From Bacillota bacterium (GTDB lineage: Bacteria > Bacillota > Clostridia > Lachnospirales > CAG-274), in assembly GCA_017444985.1 (NCBI GenBank), contig JAFSVK010000041.1, positions 1-35,960 of the forward strand: 35,960 bases of DNA. The letters are read 5' to 3'. Each line of letters starts with the position of its first letter. The stretch's first letter is position 1. Below the pieces are notes generated by a model, which ran no database searches, had not been told where the DNA came from, and worked only from the letters and a program-made list of their open reading frames with translations. Positions 25,697-34,134 of the stretch are shown here, one piece after another. The position numbers were made by a program, and so were the translations under genes.

Positions 25697-26932
25697 ATGA
25701 AGGGCAAAATAGCAGCGACACTTTTCCTTGCCTTGGCGGTGTCGAACTCCGTTTATGCAGGTGAGACGGCAAAACTTGGGGAGGGGATAGCGATATTGAA
25801 TTTTTTTGAGGGGCAGACAGAGGATATTTACAAATTCGCTAAGGGTTATGTACTTAAAACCCAAGACGGTCTTTTAGAACAAGAAAATAAGGATACTCTG
25901 TCTCTTGCTTATCCTACGGGTATGGAAAATGTTACGGTTTGGCAGGCAACAGAAGAGTCCGAACACTATTGTAACGGTGTATGTATAGCCGAGTTCCAAG
26001 GTAAACTCTACTGTCAGTGGCAAAGCTCCGCCGTAGATGAGGATGCTCCCGATACTCATATATGCTATGCGGTAAGCGAGGATAAGGGCAAGAGTTGGAG
26101 TGAGGCGAAGAAGCTGCCTGTAAATATTGAGGGTGGCTATACATCCTCCGCAGGTTGGTATTCTACAGGAGACAGGCTTGTGGCATACATCAATTTTTGG
26201 CCGGATAATATCAGCCCCAGAGGCGGTTTTACCTACTATGTTGACTCCGCAGACGGAGAGTCCTGGAGTGAACCGAAGCCTGTTACCATGGCTGACGGTA
26301 CCGTACTTGATGCCGTATTTGAGCAGGATCCCCATGTGTTTCCGAACGGCAGGATAGTAAATGCCGCCCACTTCCAAAAAGGTCTTATGGTTTGCCCTAT
26401 ATATACGGATAATAAAGACGGTGTAACGGGCTGGAAAAAAGGAAACTTCACTCCCACAGACTCGGGAGATACCTCAAGAGAAATGGAGCCGAGCCTCTTC
26501 CAAAGAAAAGACGGTACACTTGTAATGATATTCAGGGATCAGGACAGTTCCTACACTAAAAAGGCTGCTTTCAGCAACGACATGGGAGAAAATTGGAGCG
26601 AGGTCACGGACACTGCGGTACCCGATGCCAGAACAAAGCAAAGTGCGGGCAACCTCTCAAATGGCAAAGCCTTTATGGTAGGAAGCCCCGTAGATAATAA
26701 GCTGAGAAGCCCCCTTGCCATACTCTTATCCGATGAGGGTATGCTCTTTGATAAAGCCTATCTCATAAGAAGTGATGCAAGCGACCCGGAGGTAGTGTAT
26801 GAGGGAAAAGCCAAAAGGAAGGGCTTTCACTATGCAAAAAGTTTCGTATATGACGGAAAGGTATATGTAGGATATGCCACAAACAAAGAAGCTGTGGAAA
26901 TAGCCATAATACCCGAAGAAAGTTTAGAGTAA
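25697..26932 (+). CDS. Secreted sialidase-fold (Asp-box) protein
   Basis: A 411-residue exported protein. The signal peptide is MKGKIAATLFLALAVSNSVYA with cleavage after Ala21. Three Asp-box motifs of the S-x-D-x-G-x-x-W type mark a six-bladed beta-propeller: SEDKGKSWSE, SADGESWSE and SNDMGENWSE. DPHVFPNGRIV and EPSLFQRKDGTLVMIFRD are typical of sialidase-superfamily hydrolases, but I do not see a clear FRIP motif or the full arginine triad, so an inactive or different glycosidase (or a lectin-like protein) is possible. ATG 25697 is chosen for the signal peptide; the frame opens slightly earlier inside dgt. It starts one base after the dgt stop, probably by coupling. The operon context does not suggest a specific glycan. 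Confidence 0.82.
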   Translation: MKGKIAATLFLALAVSNSVYAGETAKLGEGIAILNFFEGQTEDIYKFAKGYVLKTQDGLLEQENKDTLSLAYPTGMENVTVWQATEESEHYCNGVCIAEFQGKLYCQWQSSAVDEDAPDTHICYAVSEDKGKSWSEAKKLPVNIEGGYTSSAGWYSTGDRLVAYINFWPDNISPRGGFTYYVDSADGESWSEPKPVTMADGTVLDAVFEQDPHVFPNGRIVNAAHFQKGLMVCPIYTDNKDGVTGWKKGNFTPTDSGDTSREMEPSLFQRKDGTLVMIFRDQDSSYTKKAAFSNDMGENWSEVTDTAVPDARTKQSAGNLSNGKAFMVGSPVDNKLRSPLAILLSDEGMLFDKAYLIRSDASDPEVVYEGKAKRKGFHYAKSFVYDGKVYVGYATNKEAVEIAIIPEESLE

Positions 26933-27710: not shown

Positions 27711-28106
27711 TTAAAATTTCTTCGTTAAAAGCAATCTGTTTACGCCGTCTTTGTTTTCGTATTCCATGCTGTCGGTAAGTTTTTTGGCAAGGAATATACC
27801 CAGACCGCCTATTTGTCTTTCCTCGGCATTGGCACTTGTATCGGGGTCTTCTTTTTGCAAAGGATCGAAGGGAACGCCACTATCTTCAAATATAAGTGTA
27901 AGAGTGTTGTTATCCACATCCACCTTTATTATGGCCTTACCTTCTTTGTCTTTGTAGGCATAGCTGGCAATATTTACAAAAATTTCCTCTGCCACAAGAT
28001 TCATTTGGGACACAAGCTTAAAGGGGCAACCCTCAAGACTTTCTTCTATAAATTCAAATACTTGAGGGAGATTTTCGGTTTTTGCATCTATAGTTAATTC
28101 TGCCAT
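27711..28106 (-). CDS. HATPase anti-sigma-like serine kinase (RsbW/SpoIIAB family)
   Basis: A 131-residue GHKL ATPase of the anti-sigma factor/serine kinase type. The N box is VAEEIFVNIASYAY (Glu and Asn in the usual places), G1 is FEDSGVPFDP and G2 is IGGLGIFLAKKL. Such proteins bind and phosphorylate a STAS protein and hold a sigma factor or other target. The start is set at the ATG one base after the SpoIIE-type stop, because the family begins with a short beta strand (ELTIDAKTEN) right there and GGAG lies nine bases before it. An ATG at 28115, overlapping the stop, is also possible. Its phosphatase (28108) and STAS partner (31293) are in the same unit. Confidence 0.88.
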   Translation of the reverse strand: MAELTIDAKTENLPQVFEFIEESLEGCPFKLVSQMNLVAEEIFVNIASYAYKDKEGKAIIKVDVDNNTLTLIFEDSGVPFDPLQKEDPDTSANAEERQIGGLGIFLAKKLTDSMEYENKDGVNRLLLTKKF

Positions 28107-28107
28107 A

Positions 28108-30579
28108 TCATACATCTCCAGTCCTTTTTTTATATTCAAAGCCGAGCATGGTAATATCGTCGAATTGTTCGGCTTTATCTGCAAAGCTTGATATACACTC
28201 CCTTATGAAGGGAAGGGTATCGGTCATTGTTCTCTTTGTGGCGGCATTCAGGCAGTTTAGTGTTCTGTCGGTGCCGAATTGTTCCTCGTTTTCGTTTATG
28301 GCCTCGGGAACACCGTCTGTGTAAACAAAGAGCCTGTCTCCCGGCTCGAGAGTCATCTCGTACTCTTTAAAAGGCATATCTTCCATTGCCGCAAGGGCAA
28401 GGCCGTGTTTGTCCTTGTAAAGTTCCCATTGGGAGTCTTTTCTCTTTATGGCAGGGTACTCATGACCTGCGTTGGCACATACCATTTTTCCGCTTTCAAG
28501 GTCTAAAATACCCATCCATGCCGTTACGAACATATCCGCATCGTTTCCTTGGACAAGAAGGTTGTTTGCCTTAAAAAATACTTCCGAGGGGCTTTTTCCC
28601 GCTTGTGCAAGATTTTTTATGGTGGTCATGGATCTCATCATAAAAAGGGAGGCGGGAATACCCTTACCCGACACATCGGCTATAACAAGAGCCAATTTGT
28701 TGCTGTCAACAAAGAAGAAGTCGTAGAAATCTCCCCCTACTTCCTTTGCGGGATCCATAAGGGCGAAAATCTCAAAATCATCTCTGGGGAATTTGAAGTT
28801 TTTAGGCAGAGCCGCAGATTGTATCTGTCTGGCAAATTCCAACTCTTCTTCTATTTTCTTTTCCGCTTTTGCAATATAACCTTTAAGAGCCTTTACGGTC
28901 AAGTTTATATCGTCGGAGAGGCTGGCAAACTCGCTGGAAGAACGCACATTTACGACTTCACTCAGATTTCCGTTTGTTATTCTGTCAAGAGAATAGTTTA
29001 TTTTATCCAGATCGTTTATTATTATCTTTTGAACGAGGACATATATAACTACGAATATTGCGGTAAATAAAAGTATATCCGCAAGGCCTGTTTCGTATGC
29101 GGAGGCGTTTCTGTCGGAAAACATTTCCGAATAGGGCATGGCAGCTATGAGCATATAGCTATCGTCAAACCTTTCCACATAACAGTAGTTCTTTTCACCC
29201 AATACATTGGCAGTAAAAAACTCACCACTATCGGCATTGTGCTTTGTTAAGCCTAAGTCGTATATGGTTTTGCCTGCTTGGTCGCCCTCAAGTATATCTC
29301 CGTTTTTATCCGCTATGTATATCCTTCCGCTCTCTCCTATGTGTCTGTCGCCAAGTCTTGTTTTATACTCCGTAACGGAGGAGAATTTTTGCAGAAGTTC
29401 ATCGCTTATGGCTACCTGTAAAAGACCGCCCTCGGCTGCAATGCCCACAAACATAAGGGAAAGCTCTTTATCTCTTCCCGAGGGCATAAAGTCTTGGGCA
29501 AGTTCCGTCTTTTTTCCTTCGAGTATTTCCAAGAAGGGACGGGACTGGTCGTCACTGTTCATATCGTAGCCTACCGAAAGAGGATTTGAAGAGTGGACCA
29601 CAAAACCGTCTTTTGATACGCAATCTATTTCGTAAAGGCCATATATTTGGGCAAGGTTTTTGAGTCCATCGTCACTTACATTGTCCACACCACCGAAATA
29701 CTCCACTGCAGAGGCTATGGCTCTTGCATCGGTAAAAAGTTTTTCTTTTACGAAATTACGAGCAGTATTGTAATTGGCTATGGTGTATTCGTAGTCATCT
29801 TTTGCATCTTCAATATTTATAAGTATGGTCTGTTGAGCGTTTTGTACGGCTGTTCTTGTTTGTATGGAGTGGGATAGGGCGGAGGTCACAAGAAGAAGGA
29901 GAACGGTGGAGAAGAAGAGCCATATCTGAAATTTTACGCTTATGGTAATATCTTCGTTTTTTAGCTTGACCTTTCCTAATTTAAGTTTCCCCGAGAGTAT
30001 ATAAAGCAATATACTCGAGACCACCATGGCTATTCCCGAAAAAGTTATCATGGGTATGGCACAGCTGCGTACTACATGGAATGCCATTTTCATATCGTTT
30101 CTGTGGGTTATGAACACCACATACATATGAAATACTTCCGTTACCGCACCCATAAAGAAGGCATAGAAGGGAGAGGGTTTTCTTCCTTTGTATACCTTAA
30201 AGTTAAGAAAAGCGGCAAGGAAGCCCGCAAGGCAGGTGGATAAACTGCAGGCTACCGTAGTATATGCACCTATACCGAAGTAGGTACCTGCTATATACCT
30301 TTCTATTCCGCCTACAAGTCCCGCTATGATACCCGAAACGGGATCGAAGAACAGACCTGCCGCCAAGGGAGCCACGTCCCTTAGGTTTAAGAGCATATCG
30401 CCGTAATCTACGCCGTAATGGGTGGAAAGTATGGCACAAAAGCCGTATATCACACCTATTGCGATTCGCTTTATAAGAGTTATCTCTCTTTTTTCCTTAC
30501 CCGTCCATACCCAAAACAGAAGGGTAAGTGTTACATAGAGTAGGCTTATAAAGCTCATTTTAAATATCATTACAAACAA
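28108..30579 (-). CDS. SpoIIE-family PP2C phosphatase with LytS-type and Cache sensor domains
   Basis: An 823-residue membrane sensor phosphatase. Residues about 5-205 form a multi-helix LytS-like 5TM domain (NLRDVAPLAAGLFFDPVSGIIAGLVGGIERYIAG). After a further helix near 220-240, an extracytoplasmic Cache-type region runs to about 500 (ESGRIYIADKNGDI is typical). A second helix, a HAMP-like segment and a short coiled coil lead to the PP2C/SpoIIE domain from about 590 (DPAKEVGGDFYDF and IADVSGKGIPASLFM with the metal-binding Asp residues, then NAGHEYP and DRLFVYTDGVPEA). It should dephosphorylate a STAS protein on sensing an external ligand. The start is TTG 30579: AGGGGGG lies six bases upstream, whereas ATG 30570 is too far from it. 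It is followed directly by its kinase counterpart. Confidence 0.92.
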   Translation of the reverse strand: MFVMIFKMSFISLLYVTLTLLFWVWTGKEKREITLIKRIAIGVIYGFCAILSTHYGVDYGDMLLNLRDVAPLAAGLFFDPVSGIIAGLVGGIERYIAGTYFGIGAYTTVACSLSTCLAGFLAAFLNFKVYKGRKPSPFYAFFMGAVTEVFHMYVVFITHRNDMKMAFHVVRSCAIPMITFSGIAMVVSSILLYILSGKLKLGKVKLKNEDITISVKFQIWLFFSTVLLLLVTSALSHSIQTRTAVQNAQQTILINIEDAKDDYEYTIANYNTARNFVKEKLFTDARAIASAVEYFGGVDNVSDDGLKNLAQIYGLYEIDCVSKDGFVVHSSNPLSVGYDMNSDDQSRPFLEILEGKKTELAQDFMPSGRDKELSLMFVGIAAEGGLLQVAISDELLQKFSSVTEYKTRLGDRHIGESGRIYIADKNGDILEGDQAGKTIYDLGLTKHNADSGEFFTANVLGEKNYCYVERFDDSYMLIAAMPYSEMFSDRNASAYETGLADILLFTAIFVVIYVLVQKIIINDLDKINYSLDRITNGNLSEVVNVRSSSEFASLSDDINLTVKALKGYIAKAEKKIEEELEFARQIQSAALPKNFKFPRDDFEIFALMDPAKEVGGDFYDFFFVDSNKLALVIADVSGKGIPASLFMMRSMTTIKNLAQAGKSPSEVFFKANNLLVQGNDADMFVTAWMGILDLESGKMVCANAGHEYPAIKRKDSQWELYKDKHGLALAAMEDMPFKEYEMTLEPGDRLFVYTDGVPEAINENEEQFGTDRTLNCLNAATKRTMTDTLPFIRECISSFADKAEQFDDITMLGFEYKKRTGDV

Positions 30580-30614
30580 TATTATCCCCCCTTATTTTAT
30601 GGGAGTAGGATCTG

Positions 30615-31220
30615 TTAGGCTTTATCTTCCCAATCCTTTACTACGATAATGTCTACATTTTTGCCTATGATACCTACTATAACATCATCGGCGATGTTTG
30701 CTATTATGGATTTTTCCAGCTCGTCCCAAGCCAGCTCATCATCTTCTTTTTCAAGAGCCTGTCTGTACATATCCAAGGACCAACTGCTGATATAGTAGTT
30801 AAAGGGCTCTCCCATCATACCCATACTGTAAAAGTCGGTGGGTACATCGGCGGATAAGGATACATAGTCCATAAGCATCATCTCGCAGGCTGCCCTTATC
30901 TTGTTTACGATACCTTTTGCGGAGGCATTTGTCTTTGATGTGGAAAGCTCCATAAGTTTCTCTCTGTCTGCAGAGAATATGTCATCTAAGGTAACGCTTA
31001 TATGGAGGGAGATCTTTTTCCCTTCCGTAGTTACCCAGAAATTACCGTTACAATATTCCAAAAGTTCGGGGAGCATATTTATAAGCTCTTCTGCAAGAAG
31101 TCGCTCTCTTATTATCTGCTTGGTATTTAATCCCTCGTATTTGGAAGCTTTTTCGGTTTCTTCAAGTATCTTTTCCAAAACGTCGGTATTATTTTCAAGT
31201 TGTATAATATCTGATTTCAT
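30615..31220 (-). CDS. Uncharacterised protein of the partner-switching operon
   Basis: A 201-residue acidic, soluble, helix-rich protein with no signal or membrane segment. I do not recognise a named domain. The segment TKQIIRERLLAEELINMLPELLEY, followed by FWVTTEGKKISLHI, resembles the helix-then-strand opening of GHKL ATPases, with the acidic pair where the N box would be, but no G1 or G2 box is visible, so at most it is a degenerate HATPase. SKTNASAKGIVNKIRAACEMML is a second conspicuous segment. AAGGAGAA precedes ATG 31220. It lies between the STAS gene and the phosphatase gene, so a role as adaptor or signalling target in the switch is plausible. A hairpin at 31262 precedes it. Confidence 0.75.
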   Translation of the reverse strand: MKSDIIQLENNTDVLEKILEETEKASKYEGLNTKQIIRERLLAEELINMLPELLEYCNGNFWVTTEGKKISLHISVTLDDIFSADREKLMELSTSKTNASAKGIVNKIRAACEMMLMDYVSLSADVPTDFYSMGMMGEPFNYYISSWSLDMYRQALEKEDDELAWDELEKSIIANIADDVIVGIIGKNVDIIVVKDWEDKA

Positions 31221-31261
31221 AAGTATTTCTCCTTATAGGATGGTGGTAAAATTATAAAATA

Positions 31262-31287
31262 CGGTGCGGTATGAAATGCCGCACCGC
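31262..31287 (-). terminator. Hairpin between the STAS gene and the 30615 gene
   Basis: CGGTGCGGTAT-GAA-ATGCCGCACCG; on the minus strand it is followed by TATTTTATAATTTT. It may lower expression of the distal phosphatase genes relative to exporter, peptide and STAS. Confidence 0.75.
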
Positions 31288-31292
31288 ATATA

Positions 31293-31589
31293 TTACTCTA
31301 TGTTGAGAATGTCTATAAAGCCCGTGACTTCAAATATCTCCATAACGGACTCATTTGCTCCCGTAACTGTCATTTTGCCCTGCTTATTCATGATCTTCTG
31401 AGATGAGAGGAGTACTCTTAAACCTGCGGAAGATATGTATTCAAGCTTTGAAATATCAAAAACAAGCTCTGTTACATTGTCGATATCCTCCTTGAGAGAT
31501 GCCTCAAGCTCGGGGGAGGTAGCGGTATCAAGTCTGCCTTCAAGGGCTACTGTAAGTTTCTTGTCGTTAAGGTCTTTTGTGATCGTCAT
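31293..31589 (-). CDS. STAS-domain anti-sigma factor antagonist
   Basis: A 98-residue single STAS domain of the SpoIIAA/RsbV type. The family pattern is clear: LTVALEGRLDTATSPELEASL near the N-terminus and LVFDISKLEYISSAGLRVLL around the phosphorylation site, with Ser54 at the position of the regulatory serine (D-S-x-G in RsbV, S-S-A-G here, so the usual Asp before it is replaced by Ser). It should be phosphorylated by the HATPase protein (27711) and dephosphorylated by the SpoIIE-type protein (28108). AAAGGAGAA precedes the start. It follows the small peptide gene by 17 bases. Confidence 0.92.
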   Translation of the reverse strand: MTITKDLNDKKLTVALEGRLDTATSPELEASLKEDIDNVTELVFDISKLEYISSAGLRVLLSSQKIMNKQGKMTVTGANESVMEIFEVTGFIDILNIE

Positions 31590-31606
31590 TTTTTTTCTCC
31601 TTTATA

Positions 31607-31867
31607 TTACATTATATTGTTTCCGTATACAAATACTTCCGAACAGCTTGTGCATCTTTGACCGTAGTATGCCGTTCTGCCGTTATCGGTGGTGAATATC
31701 CCATCATTAAGGGAACCTGCACATTTAGGACATTTTTCAAGTTTTGCCCCGACTCTTGTGAATATACCCACAGCGGTTATGGAGGTGATGGATGATCCAC
31801 CCGAGGCTCCGCCTGTGATCTTTGTCAGGTTAAGATCGTTAATGTTTTTGCCTAAGTTCATATTCAT
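31607..31867 (-). CDS. Small double-glycine-leader peptide with zinc-ribbon-like core
   Basis: An 86-residue protein directly after the exporter gene. The N-terminus, LNDLNLTKITGG-type (L12 to G20), resembles double-glycine leaders cleaved and exported by peptide transporters, with a Leu-x-x-Ile-x-Gly-Gly pattern and Gly19-Gly20 as the expected cut site. The next 25 residues are rich in Gly, Ser, Thr and Ile. The C-terminal half contains CPKC (46-49) and CTSC (72-75), spaced as a zinc ribbon or a pair of crosslinkable Cys motifs. AAAGGAGAG precedes ATG 31867. It could be an exported peptide (bacteriocin or signal), or a cytosolic zinc-ribbon protein whose Gly-Gly is coincidental. No modification enzyme or C39 peptidase is encoded next to it. 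Confidence 0.75.
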   Translation of the reverse strand: MNMNLGKNINDLNLTKITGGASGGSSITSITAVGIFTRVGAKLEKCPKCAGSLNDGIFTTDNGRTAYYGQRCTSCSEVFVYGNNIM

Positions 31868-31891
31868 TATATCTCTCCTTTCCTGTTTGCC

Positions 31892-34066
31892 CTATATTTT
31901 CTGCCTTTTTACAAGTTGGGCGAATACACCGTTTTTCTCGCTCAACTCCTTGTAGGTACCTTCCTCGGCAATACTTCCTTCTTTTATGACTATTATCCTG
32001 TCACATTCCATTACCGTTGAAAGGCGGTGTGCTATCACTATCCTTGTACATTTGAGCTTGTCCAAGGCTTGCGATATTTTCTTTTGTGTTATATTGTCAA
32101 GGGCGCTTGTGGCCTCGTCAAACATAAGTATTTTAGGCTTTGAAGCAAGGGCTCTTGCTATGAGTAGCCTCTGCCGCTGCCCTCCCGATATACCCGAGTT
32201 GTTTTCTGTTATAAGTGTGAACATACCCATAGGCATCTGTCTTATATCCTCGGCTATACCTGCGGTCTCAGCCGCCTCCCAAGCCTCATCCATTGTCAGA
32301 GAAGGGGCTGTGAGAGCTATATTTGAATATATATCCCCACGGAAAAGCTTCTCGCTTTGCATAACTATGCCTATTTGTCTTCTTACAGAGCGCATATCTA
32401 TATTTTGTATATCGGTGTTATCAAAATATATGGCACCCGTTTGAGGCTTTTCAAAACCTAAGAGAAGCTTAAAGAGGGTGGATTTCCCCGAGGCGCTTTC
32501 TCCCACCAAAGCCACGTACTCGCCGGGCTTTATGTTAAGGGAAAAGTTTTTTATAACGCTTGGCATACCCTCTTTGTAGGTGAAGGATACATTGTTTATT
32601 TCGATTTTTCCTCTTAAGTGGGTGAGGACCTGCTTGTTTTGAGTAAGTTCGGGTTCCTCTTTAAGTATGGGCATAAACATATCAAGCATAGGCTTTGCAT
32701 CGGCTGCTGTAAGTATTATGCTTGAAAGTGTGGCAAAGGCCGCACTTACCATACCGAAGGAGGTCAAAAAAGCATAGTAGTCGGGGATGGCTATATGGTT
32801 TTTGACCGCAGTATAATATATTATAAGTGTTCCCGCAAGATTTACCGCTGAATTTACGGCGGTATTTATCTTTAGGAAAAAGGGTATGTCGTAAGTAAAG
32901 CGTGACTGCTTGCCGTAGCTTTTTGCCCAATTGGCAAAGGCTCTTTTCTCCGCACCCGCAAGGCGTATCTTTTCCACTCCCGATATAAGGGCGAAGCTTA
33001 AACCACCGTTTTGTGAGGTGTAAAGCATACGCTGTCTGCTTATTTTCATCTGCCAAAGCCCCGCTATAGTGGAAAGCACAAAGGTTATGAGTATCACACT
33101 TAAGGCTACGGGCATAAGTGCGGGAGTAAGGAAAAATATCTGTCCTATGTATATAAGGGAAAACAAGCCGGTGATACCCAATGAAAAGGCACAGTTTACA
33201 ACACAGGAGCAAAATGAGGATATATAGTCTATCCTCTCCGAAAGTTCTCCCGAGGAATAGTTTTTGAAAAATCCTACGGGAAGAGAGAGCATCCTCATTA
33301 CAGCCGCCGCCTTTGAGCCTATGGATATTTTTGTGCCTACGGAAAGAGTGGCTATATCTCTTACTATACCCAAAAGTATACGGGAAAAGGAAGCAAACAC
33401 CATAAATACCGCTATGGATAAAAGTACCGATATACTTTTGCTCTCTACCGCCGTTGAAAAAAGGTACCTGTTGAAAAAGGGAAACAAAAGACCCACACAG
33501 GTAGCGCCGAAGGCGGCAAAACAGAGGGAGAGTATATCGTTTAGGTCTATGGACTTTGCCATGTATTTAAGTATATCTCCCAAGTTTAGTTTTCTTAAGG
33601 GGAAGGGTTTGTAAAAAACAAAGGCATCGCTGTCAAAAAGCTTGGCATTTTTAGGGGTAAGGGTTATGTTCTTGCCCTTTACATCATCAAAAAAAACATA
33701 GCCGTTTATTTTGGGAAGCAGTGCCACAAGACGAGAGTCGTCTTTTCTTTTTGCGAGAAGGGGACCGTAGGCATCTTTATACCAATTGCCCTTAAGCTCC
33801 ACCTTACGATACATTATACCATCGGGTCTGAAAATATAGTCAAGCTTATCGTCTATATTCGTAAGAGAGGAGGGTATCTCCTTGTCTTTTATGCCGAAAA
33901 AACGAAGTATGAGGTTAAAGCTTTCGTTATTATCCGAAGTGATACCGAAAAAAGCCGCAGCCTCGCTACGCCCTGTGACAGAGCTTACAAGCTCCGACAT
34001 AGAGTCCCTAAAAACTATATCATCCTGTTGTTTTCTTTGCAATATTTGTTCGCTGAACCAACTCAT
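31892..34066 (-). CDS. NHLM-type ABC exporter (fused permease/ATPase), no peptidase domain
   Basis: A 724-residue ABC half-exporter. Residues 1-150 are soluble and poorly conserved, as in the second transporter of NHLM (nitrile hydratase leader microcin) export systems, with no C39 cysteine protease motif. A six-helix export domain spans about 165-455. The ATPase domain (about 485-724) shows Walker A GESASGKST, the signature ISGGQRQRLLIARAL, Walker B ILMFDEATSALD and the H-loop IAHRLST, all apparently functional. It should export a peptide, most likely the product of the next gene (24-base gap). Start ATG 34066 has AAAGAGG upstream, with a promoter at 34106-34134. A second NHLM transporter with peptidase, and an HlyD-type partner, are absent from the window. 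Confidence 0.85.
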   Translation of the reverse strand: MSWFSEQILQRKQQDDIVFRDSMSELVSSVTGRSEAAAFFGITSDNNESFNLILRFFGIKDKEIPSSLTNIDDKLDYIFRPDGIMYRKVELKGNWYKDAYGPLLAKRKDDSRLVALLPKINGYVFFDDVKGKNITLTPKNAKLFDSDAFVFYKPFPLRKLNLGDILKYMAKSIDLNDILSLCFAAFGATCVGLLFPFFNRYLFSTAVESKSISVLLSIAVFMVFASFSRILLGIVRDIATLSVGTKISIGSKAAAVMRMLSLPVGFFKNYSSGELSERIDYISSFCSCVVNCAFSLGITGLFSLIYIGQIFFLTPALMPVALSVILITFVLSTIAGLWQMKISRQRMLYTSQNGGLSFALISGVEKIRLAGAEKRAFANWAKSYGKQSRFTYDIPFFLKINTAVNSAVNLAGTLIIYYTAVKNHIAIPDYYAFLTSFGMVSAAFATLSSIILTAADAKPMLDMFMPILKEEPELTQNKQVLTHLRGKIEINNVSFTYKEGMPSVIKNFSLNIKPGEYVALVGESASGKSTLFKLLLGFEKPQTGAIYFDNTDIQNIDMRSVRRQIGIVMQSEKLFRGDIYSNIALTAPSLTMDEAWEAAETAGIAEDIRQMPMGMFTLITENNSGISGGQRQRLLIARALASKPKILMFDEATSALDNITQKKISQALDKLKCTRIVIAHRLSTVMECDRIIVIKEGSIAEEGTYKELSEKNGVFAQLVKRQKI

Positions 34067-34105: not shown

Positions 34106-34134
34106 ATTATACCATATCAAAAATATAATGTCTA
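34106..34134 (-). promoter_or_regulatory. Sigma-A promoter of the exporter/partner-switch operon
   Basis: On the minus strand: TAGACA, 17 bases, TATAAT, about 40 bases before the exporter ATG. It is a housekeeping-type promoter, so the unit need not depend on the sigma factor it may control. Confidence 0.65.

Follow-up and report, generated by a model that had tools for sequence, protein, structure and literature searches.

A double-glycine peptide exporter locus in a Bacillota bacterium with a complete partner switch and a putative pseudo-RsbW protein

As likely as not, the locus described here combines one half of a peptide exporter of the NHLM type and one of its Gly-Gly cargo peptides with a complete, sigma-free partner switch that sets the production or export of the peptide. 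Given that the pairing of exporter and switch recurs across many related bacteria, the exported peptide is probably under the control of the switch, or a cue to which the switch responds. Most of what is known about partner switching concerns the freeing of sigma factors, and outputs of other kinds are rarely understood. The lineage-wide association of a switch with peptide exporters, together with the usual location of the P201 family (see below) near STAS, provides a clean system in which to seek a non-transcriptional output, and would link a large, unstudied family of Gly-Gly peptides with a cysteine knuckle, found in gut-type Clostridia, to an assayable sensor.

The whole stretch of DNA that was analysed, 35,960 nt long, is referred to as the window. 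The locus consists of seven genes that occupy one strand (minus) from position 34066 to 27115, with the following features:

34106..34134, minus strand: promoter-like site 5' of the exporter gene, TAGACA-17-TATAAT with an extended -10
31892..34066, minus strand: ABC2 exporter subunit, NHLM-type (permease and ATPase), 724 amino acids; TIGR03797, PF00664 and PF00005
31607..31867, minus strand: double-glycine peptide with a CPKC...CTSC core, 86 amino acids; relatives in six genomes
31293..31589, minus strand: STAS protein of the anti-anti-sigma type, 98 amino acids; PF01740, TIGR00377
31243..31300, minus strand: hairpin with a U-rich run in the STAS/P201 gap (terminator or attenuator, by folding energy)
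30615..31220, minus strand: P201, putative pseudo-kinase, 201 amino acids; fold and profile alignments, no Pfam or NCBIfam family
28108..30570 or 30579, minus strand: SpoIIE/PP2C phosphatase, 820-823 amino acids; PF07228, PF07694 (5TM-LYT)
27711..28115, minus strand: RsbW-like serine kinase, 134 amino acids; PF13581
27115..27699, minus strand: NADPH-dependent FMN reductase-like protein; PF03358 (1.2e-27)

The earlier note on this DNA had described the six genes from the exporter to the kinase, on one strand and in this order, and its description holds for all six, including the identities of the peptidase-less NHLM-type exporter, the Gly-Gly peptide, the STAS protein, the membrane sensor SpoIIE phosphatase and the RsbW-like kinase. 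The intergenic gaps, from the exporter to the FMN reductase, are 24, 17, 72, 35, -8 and 11 bases. The ATG of RsbW at 28115 overlaps the SpoIIE stop codon, and a TTG start that would give 157 amino acids was dropped in its favor; the FMN reductase gene starts 11 bases past RsbW and is probably co-transcribed with it. The site upstream of the exporter has 11 of 12 consensus matches in a consensus scan, a match to consensus only, and this sigma-70-like promoter faces the glyA promoter. A hairpin in the 72-base gap between STAS and P201 has a folding energy of -23.3 kcal/mol (z -5.08, with no shuffled sequence folding equally well); the consensus scan missed it because its loop is 9 nt long. Given this strong hairpin and the U-rich run, transcription may stop or thin at this point, and the possible division of the operon counts against the main reading. 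In two other loci, L024 (in a sister genus) and L025, STAS and P201 are separated by just 20-27 bases. PADLOC returned nothing for the locus beyond generic ATPase matches. Elsewhere in the window (25697-26932, plus strand), there is a gene for a probably secreted 411-amino acid BNR-repeat protein with a sialidase-like fold (PF13088, 3.1e-40).

The best NCBIfam model for the exporter is TIGR03797 (NHLM_micro_ABC2), with a score of 693 bits, 16 bits under the curated cut-off of 709.4; the orthologues in L024, L025, L028 and L039 score 715-722 bits, above this cut-off. No C39 peptidase domain was found in the window exporter by domain search. The genome encodes an ABC1 subunit with a C39 peptidase (L062:5905-8076; TIGR03796, 858.9 bits against a cut-off of 853.3), and the pair of ABC1 and a short HlyD-like protein (mini-HlyD) lies well inside contig C17, away from the contig ends, so that the cassette is divided between two loci in this genome. 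As judged by sequence, the window exporter is one half of an NHLM-type two-ABC system, with the peptidase half elsewhere in the genome. In sister genera, ABC2 always follows ABC1, the C39-peptidase ABC protein, and the mini-HlyD of 74 amino acids. The latter falls short of the full HlyD-type model TIGR03794, covering positions 2-47 of 421 with 34.8 bits against a cut-off of 156.2. ABC2 subunits of 850-950 amino acids with an N-terminal extension of 120-200 amino acids are also encountered, at L119, L120, L122, L123, L163, L172, L176 and other loci.

The kinase, phosphatase and STAS motifs are all intact, and these components travel together. The STAS protein matches PF01740 (1.7e-15) and TIGR00377 (70.4 bits, cut-off 53.45), and its phosphoacceptor motif, YISSAGLR, is retained in its relatives. 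The phosphatase has a catalytic PF07228 domain (1.9e-46, 158.9 bits) that is preceded by a 5TM-LYT region (7.6e-28) and weak Cache and HAMP matches, an architecture common to L024, L041, L056 and L057; the phosphatase of L027 differs in its sensor, which is dCache without LYT. In the kinase (PF13581, 1.9e-22), the N, G1 and G2 boxes are intact, and the conserved residues E44, N48, D78, G80 and GGLG are invariant. The whole genome encodes a single HATPase_c_2 (RsbW) kinase above cut-off, two SpoIIE phosphatases, one stand-alone STAS protein and five STAS fusions (L065:3884-5131, L067:3433-4689, L068:6004-7158, L069:6840-8000 and L066:2726-3862). Four of these fusions join STAS to a kinase-like domain, the TIGR02172/APH-like assignment of which comes from a scan of L065 only, and one joins a methyltransferase to STAS. 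The fusion proteins could be additional clients of the single RsbW kinase.

P201, which the earlier note had left as unknown, is a new protein family: together with 29 aligned relatives, it belongs to no Pfam or NCBIfam family, and it was found in 46 of the 392 genomes of the order. A structure model of middling confidence (pLDDT 70.9, pTM 0.67) aligns with RsbW (6m36_G) with Z 10.9 and rmsd 2.4 over 104 residues (VIA-align), followed by UsfX, SpoIIAB and SiaB (6kko, Z 8.9); histidine kinases and others reach Z 5.2 or less, with the exception of the response regulator LvrC (Z 7.6, over LvrC residues 138-296). The Foldseek match to the RsbW fold has an E-value of only 8e-3. In both local and global profile alignments, the conserved P201 motif LLAEELxxM aligns with the RsbW N-box LVAEEIFVN, and 'WDELEKSIIANLADDVIVGI' aligns with the GGLG helix. 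The N-box Asn is thereby replaced by Met and the GGLG region by DELEKS, in alignments with E-values of only 0.004-0.005, so that the magnesium-binding Asn and the glycines appear to be lost in P201. The local comparison has a probability of 8% (E 0.004) and yet places the N-boxes in register. From fold and profile taken together, P201 is probably a pseudo-RsbW, that is, a pseudo-kinase of the RsbW/SpoIIAB/SiaB fold with a degenerate ATP site. None of the 30 family members matched PF13581 at E up to 0.1, and a PDB sequence search with the P201 profile returned no match. A similarity to RINT1/TIP1 (E 0.06), found in two of the 30 members, was dismissed as noise.

Among 37 P201 gene calls that have 1.5 kb of flanking sequence, two of them halves of one broken gene, 21 directly adjoin a STAS gene and 27 have one within four genes. 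P201-STAS pairs are also found far from any exporter, and in another family, P201 is a 400-amino acid tandem duplicate. In one contig (G036:C108; L022/L032), the P201 gene is broken into two reading frames, of 147 and 63 amino acids, beside intact-looking SpoIIE and RsbW genes, which reflects either decay or an assembly error.

The linkage of the exporter with the switch is not a local accident. Among 46 genomes of the order that have the exporter, which contain 57 ABC2 genes and 108 kinases of the RsbW type, 17 kinase-exporter pairs lie within 10 kb, compared with 1.05 expected, in 16 of the 46 genomes and 11 genera; the Poisson probability is 4e-14 by genome and 2e-8 by genus, both values being optimistic owing to the relatedness of the genomes. 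The two are thus not adjacent in this genome only, which supports the earlier proposal that they belong together. At least one of STAS, RsbW, P201 and SpoIIE is found within 8 kb in 30 of the 60 exporter loci of the order, and two or more in 20, which is the safer figure because a few single-component matches are open to question, the gene being on the opposite strand or the STAS domain fused; the other half of the loci have no switch gene within this distance. A nearly full set of components forms one run in L024, in the order peptide, 410-amino acid protein, peptide, SpoIIE, RsbW, mini-HlyD, ABC1, ABC2, STAS, P201. The order of the components differs in L041, L025, L039, L103, L149, L122 and L148, which suggests that exporter-switch loci were assembled repeatedly. 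STAS-SpoIIE-P201 and P201-STAS sets without exporters are present in L029, L033 and L035. Of the conservation that the earlier note proposed to check in Firmicutes, the linkage stands, above chance and across genera, but the exact order does not, the components being shuffled and some of them missing. A contig scan with one protein recovered only one locus.

No sigma factor is encoded at the locus, as stated in the earlier note, and for the SigB/F/G and ECF types, this is true of the whole assembly, which is 98.5% complete and contains none above cut-off. The sigma factors of this genome are RpoD, an RpoD-like protein (L072, contig C137) and SigH, and no usual target for the switch is evident genome-wide. 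Candidates for a hidden ECF sigma factor were weak matches that turned out to be YlxM (L074) and an MrpORP-like protein (L075). A sigma factor missed in the assembly is possible but unlikely given its completeness.

In the order at large, an ECF sigma gene is located near 14 of the 60 exporters. Of the 30 exporters accompanied by switch components, 8 also have such a neighbor, so that only a minority of the loci (8 of 60) contain both. In the phylum outside the order, ECF sigma genes are present at 9 of the 18 exporter loci and a switch component at 3 of the 18, which makes a neighboring ECF sigma factor seem the wider habit for this exporter type and the partner switch a habit of this order. 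The ECF sigma genes beside NHLM exporters outside the order are those of L160, L163, L166, L169-L172, L176 and L177, in other families; a cursory look at the literature gave no account of this association. A sigma factor as the constant neighbor of the exporter would have told against the earlier proposal; no sigma factor is constant in this way, but ECF genes are frequent enough to leave real doubt. The exporter-switch loci with ECF sigma genes include L100, L103, L145 and L152, so that a transcriptional output is possible there. At two exporter loci, small proteins ending in LSDDEL.FVAAAG directly precede the ECF sigma gene (L103:12213-12431 and L100:8563-8754); they match no NCBIfam family and could be cargo or anti-sigma factors.

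The window peptide, which contains the sequence LTKITGG, belongs to a family with at least 20 members in this bacterial family, often several per genome and often distant from the exporter; a second member is encoded in the same genome, on contig C216. The first Met, the Gly-Gly, the CPxC-type cysteines and QxC are invariant in the 20-member alignment, and the core across this multi-copy family can be summarized as CPxC...CxxC. The AlphaFold (AF2) model has a beta core, with block mean pLDDT of 78-89, and an unstructured leader. The best matches in a fold search were zinc ribbons (RPA12, NrdR, Trm112), all with E above 0.6, so that a zinc-ribbon-like core is suggestive and zinc binding is a guess prompted by the cysteines. 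The window peptide has no match to NHLP or Nif11 leader precursor models of NCBIfam at E up to 1. It is likewise unmatched by bacteriocin_sig (TIGR01847), which a paralogue in L058 matches with 18.9 against a cut-off of 15.7. Lone peptide genes occur elsewhere in the genomes (L052-L055, L058 and L059). Two distinct Gly-Gly peptides, of the SADEM/SADET and ENY/DSY types, are paired before SpoIIE in four loci (L024:254-2045, where they flank the 410-amino acid gene, L027:9015-9570, L056:2342-2907 and L057:9769-10325).

According to the main reading, the membrane SpoIIE phosphatase would sense a cell-surface signal via its 5TM/Cache part and would remove phosphate from STAS, which the RsbW kinase would restore. 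P201 would be a second partner of STAS, the phosphorylation state setting STAS on either RsbW or P201, and the state of the P201/STAS pair would determine the level of peptide production or export. We infer here the P201-STAS binding, the direction of signaling, and export or peptide production as the output. A partner switch that acts on a secretion system has a precedent in BtrUVW of Bordetella (PMC8256260, PMC7498569). The peptide could also be the external signal itself, being exported, relieved of its leader and read by the 5TM/Cache phosphatase in an autoinducing loop, so that the switch answers the peptide; this main rival of the preferred reading, rather unlikely in itself, draws on the zinc-ribbon-like peptide pairs directly before SpoIIE in the four loci, and in particular on L056 and L057, where the phosphatase is of the same 5TM-LYT class and there is no exporter within the stretch read, an arrangement that favors coupling of peptide and phosphatase. 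However, the peptide genes are also found alone, the window peptide adjoins the exporter rather than the phosphatase, and one of the four phosphatases, that of L027, has the different sensor. Control of the peptide by the switch and sensing of the peptide by the phosphatase are compatible, and both can be true. A fuller scheme, in which STAS shuttles between RsbW and P201, P201 gates the exporter post-translationally and the phosphatase reads the exported zinc-ribbon peptide in a sigma-free, quorum-type loop, is speculative and quite improbable as a whole.

An ordinary switch, with a sigma factor elsewhere in the genome (the RpoD-like protein of C137, SigH or a missed one) as its target and the exporter and peptide in its regulon, seems unlikely. 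The genome does have the RpoD-like sigma factor and SigH, the exporter promoter is sigma-70-like, and ECF genes accompany many exporters both in the order and elsewhere in the phylum; but RsbW-class kinases bind SigB/F/G-type factors, which, like the ECF type, are missing from the nearly complete assembly, and of the loci that pair an exporter with a switch gene, only 8 of 30 also have an ECF sigma factor nearby. It is very improbable that the switch runs another process and merely shares the locus. The existence of exporter-free P201-STAS and STAS-SpoIIE-P201 sets and the inclusion of the FMN reductase in the run would fit such a co-location, but the excess of kinase-exporter pairs, in many genera and in varied arrangements, argues against it.

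A limited literature search, with many journals outside its reach, found neither a combination of NHLP with SpoIIE or STAS nor this set of components, a pseudo-RsbW or a lineage-wide bond of a switch with an exporter. The closest relative of the export part is the three-gene NHLM/NHLP bacteriocin export cassette described by Haft et al. 2010 (PMC2887384). The likeness lies in the two ABC subunits, one of them with a C39 peptidase, and in the HlyD-type gene that precedes ABC1. Here, the HlyD protein is cut to 74 amino acids, ABC2 scores slightly below the cut-off, the genes are divided between two loci and the cargo falls outside the NHLP and Nif11 precursors; furthermore, partner-switch genes are attached, which go unmentioned in the searched passages of PMC2887384, the word 'sigma' being absent.

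As for the switch, BtrU/BtrV/BtrW of Bordetella similarly consists of a PP2C phosphatase, a STAS protein and an RsbW-like kinase tied to secretion, with an ABC transporter gene, BtrN, at the locus. The Bordetella locus, however, includes a type III system and the ECF sigma factor BtrS, in contrast to the peptide ABC exporter, the genome without an ECF sigma factor and the putative extra pseudo-RsbW found here. A partner switch with a non-sigma output is also known in Pseudomonas, SiaA/SiaB/SiaC/SiaD, in which the target is the cyclase SiaD and SiaC departs from the ordinary STAS type. The SpoIIE part of the window phosphatase has a SiaA-like stretch (66.9 bits, which does not approach the model cut-off of 700), and SiaB is among the closest structural matches of the P201 model. 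The RsbU/RsbV/RsbW-SigB and SpoIIE/SpoIIAA/SpoIIAB-SigF systems share with the present locus the same three enzyme and antagonist types, with intact motifs, but here there is no SigB, SigF or SigG, the sensor part of SpoIIE is different, and P201 has no counterpart in either of these systems. Every type of part in this locus is known except P201.
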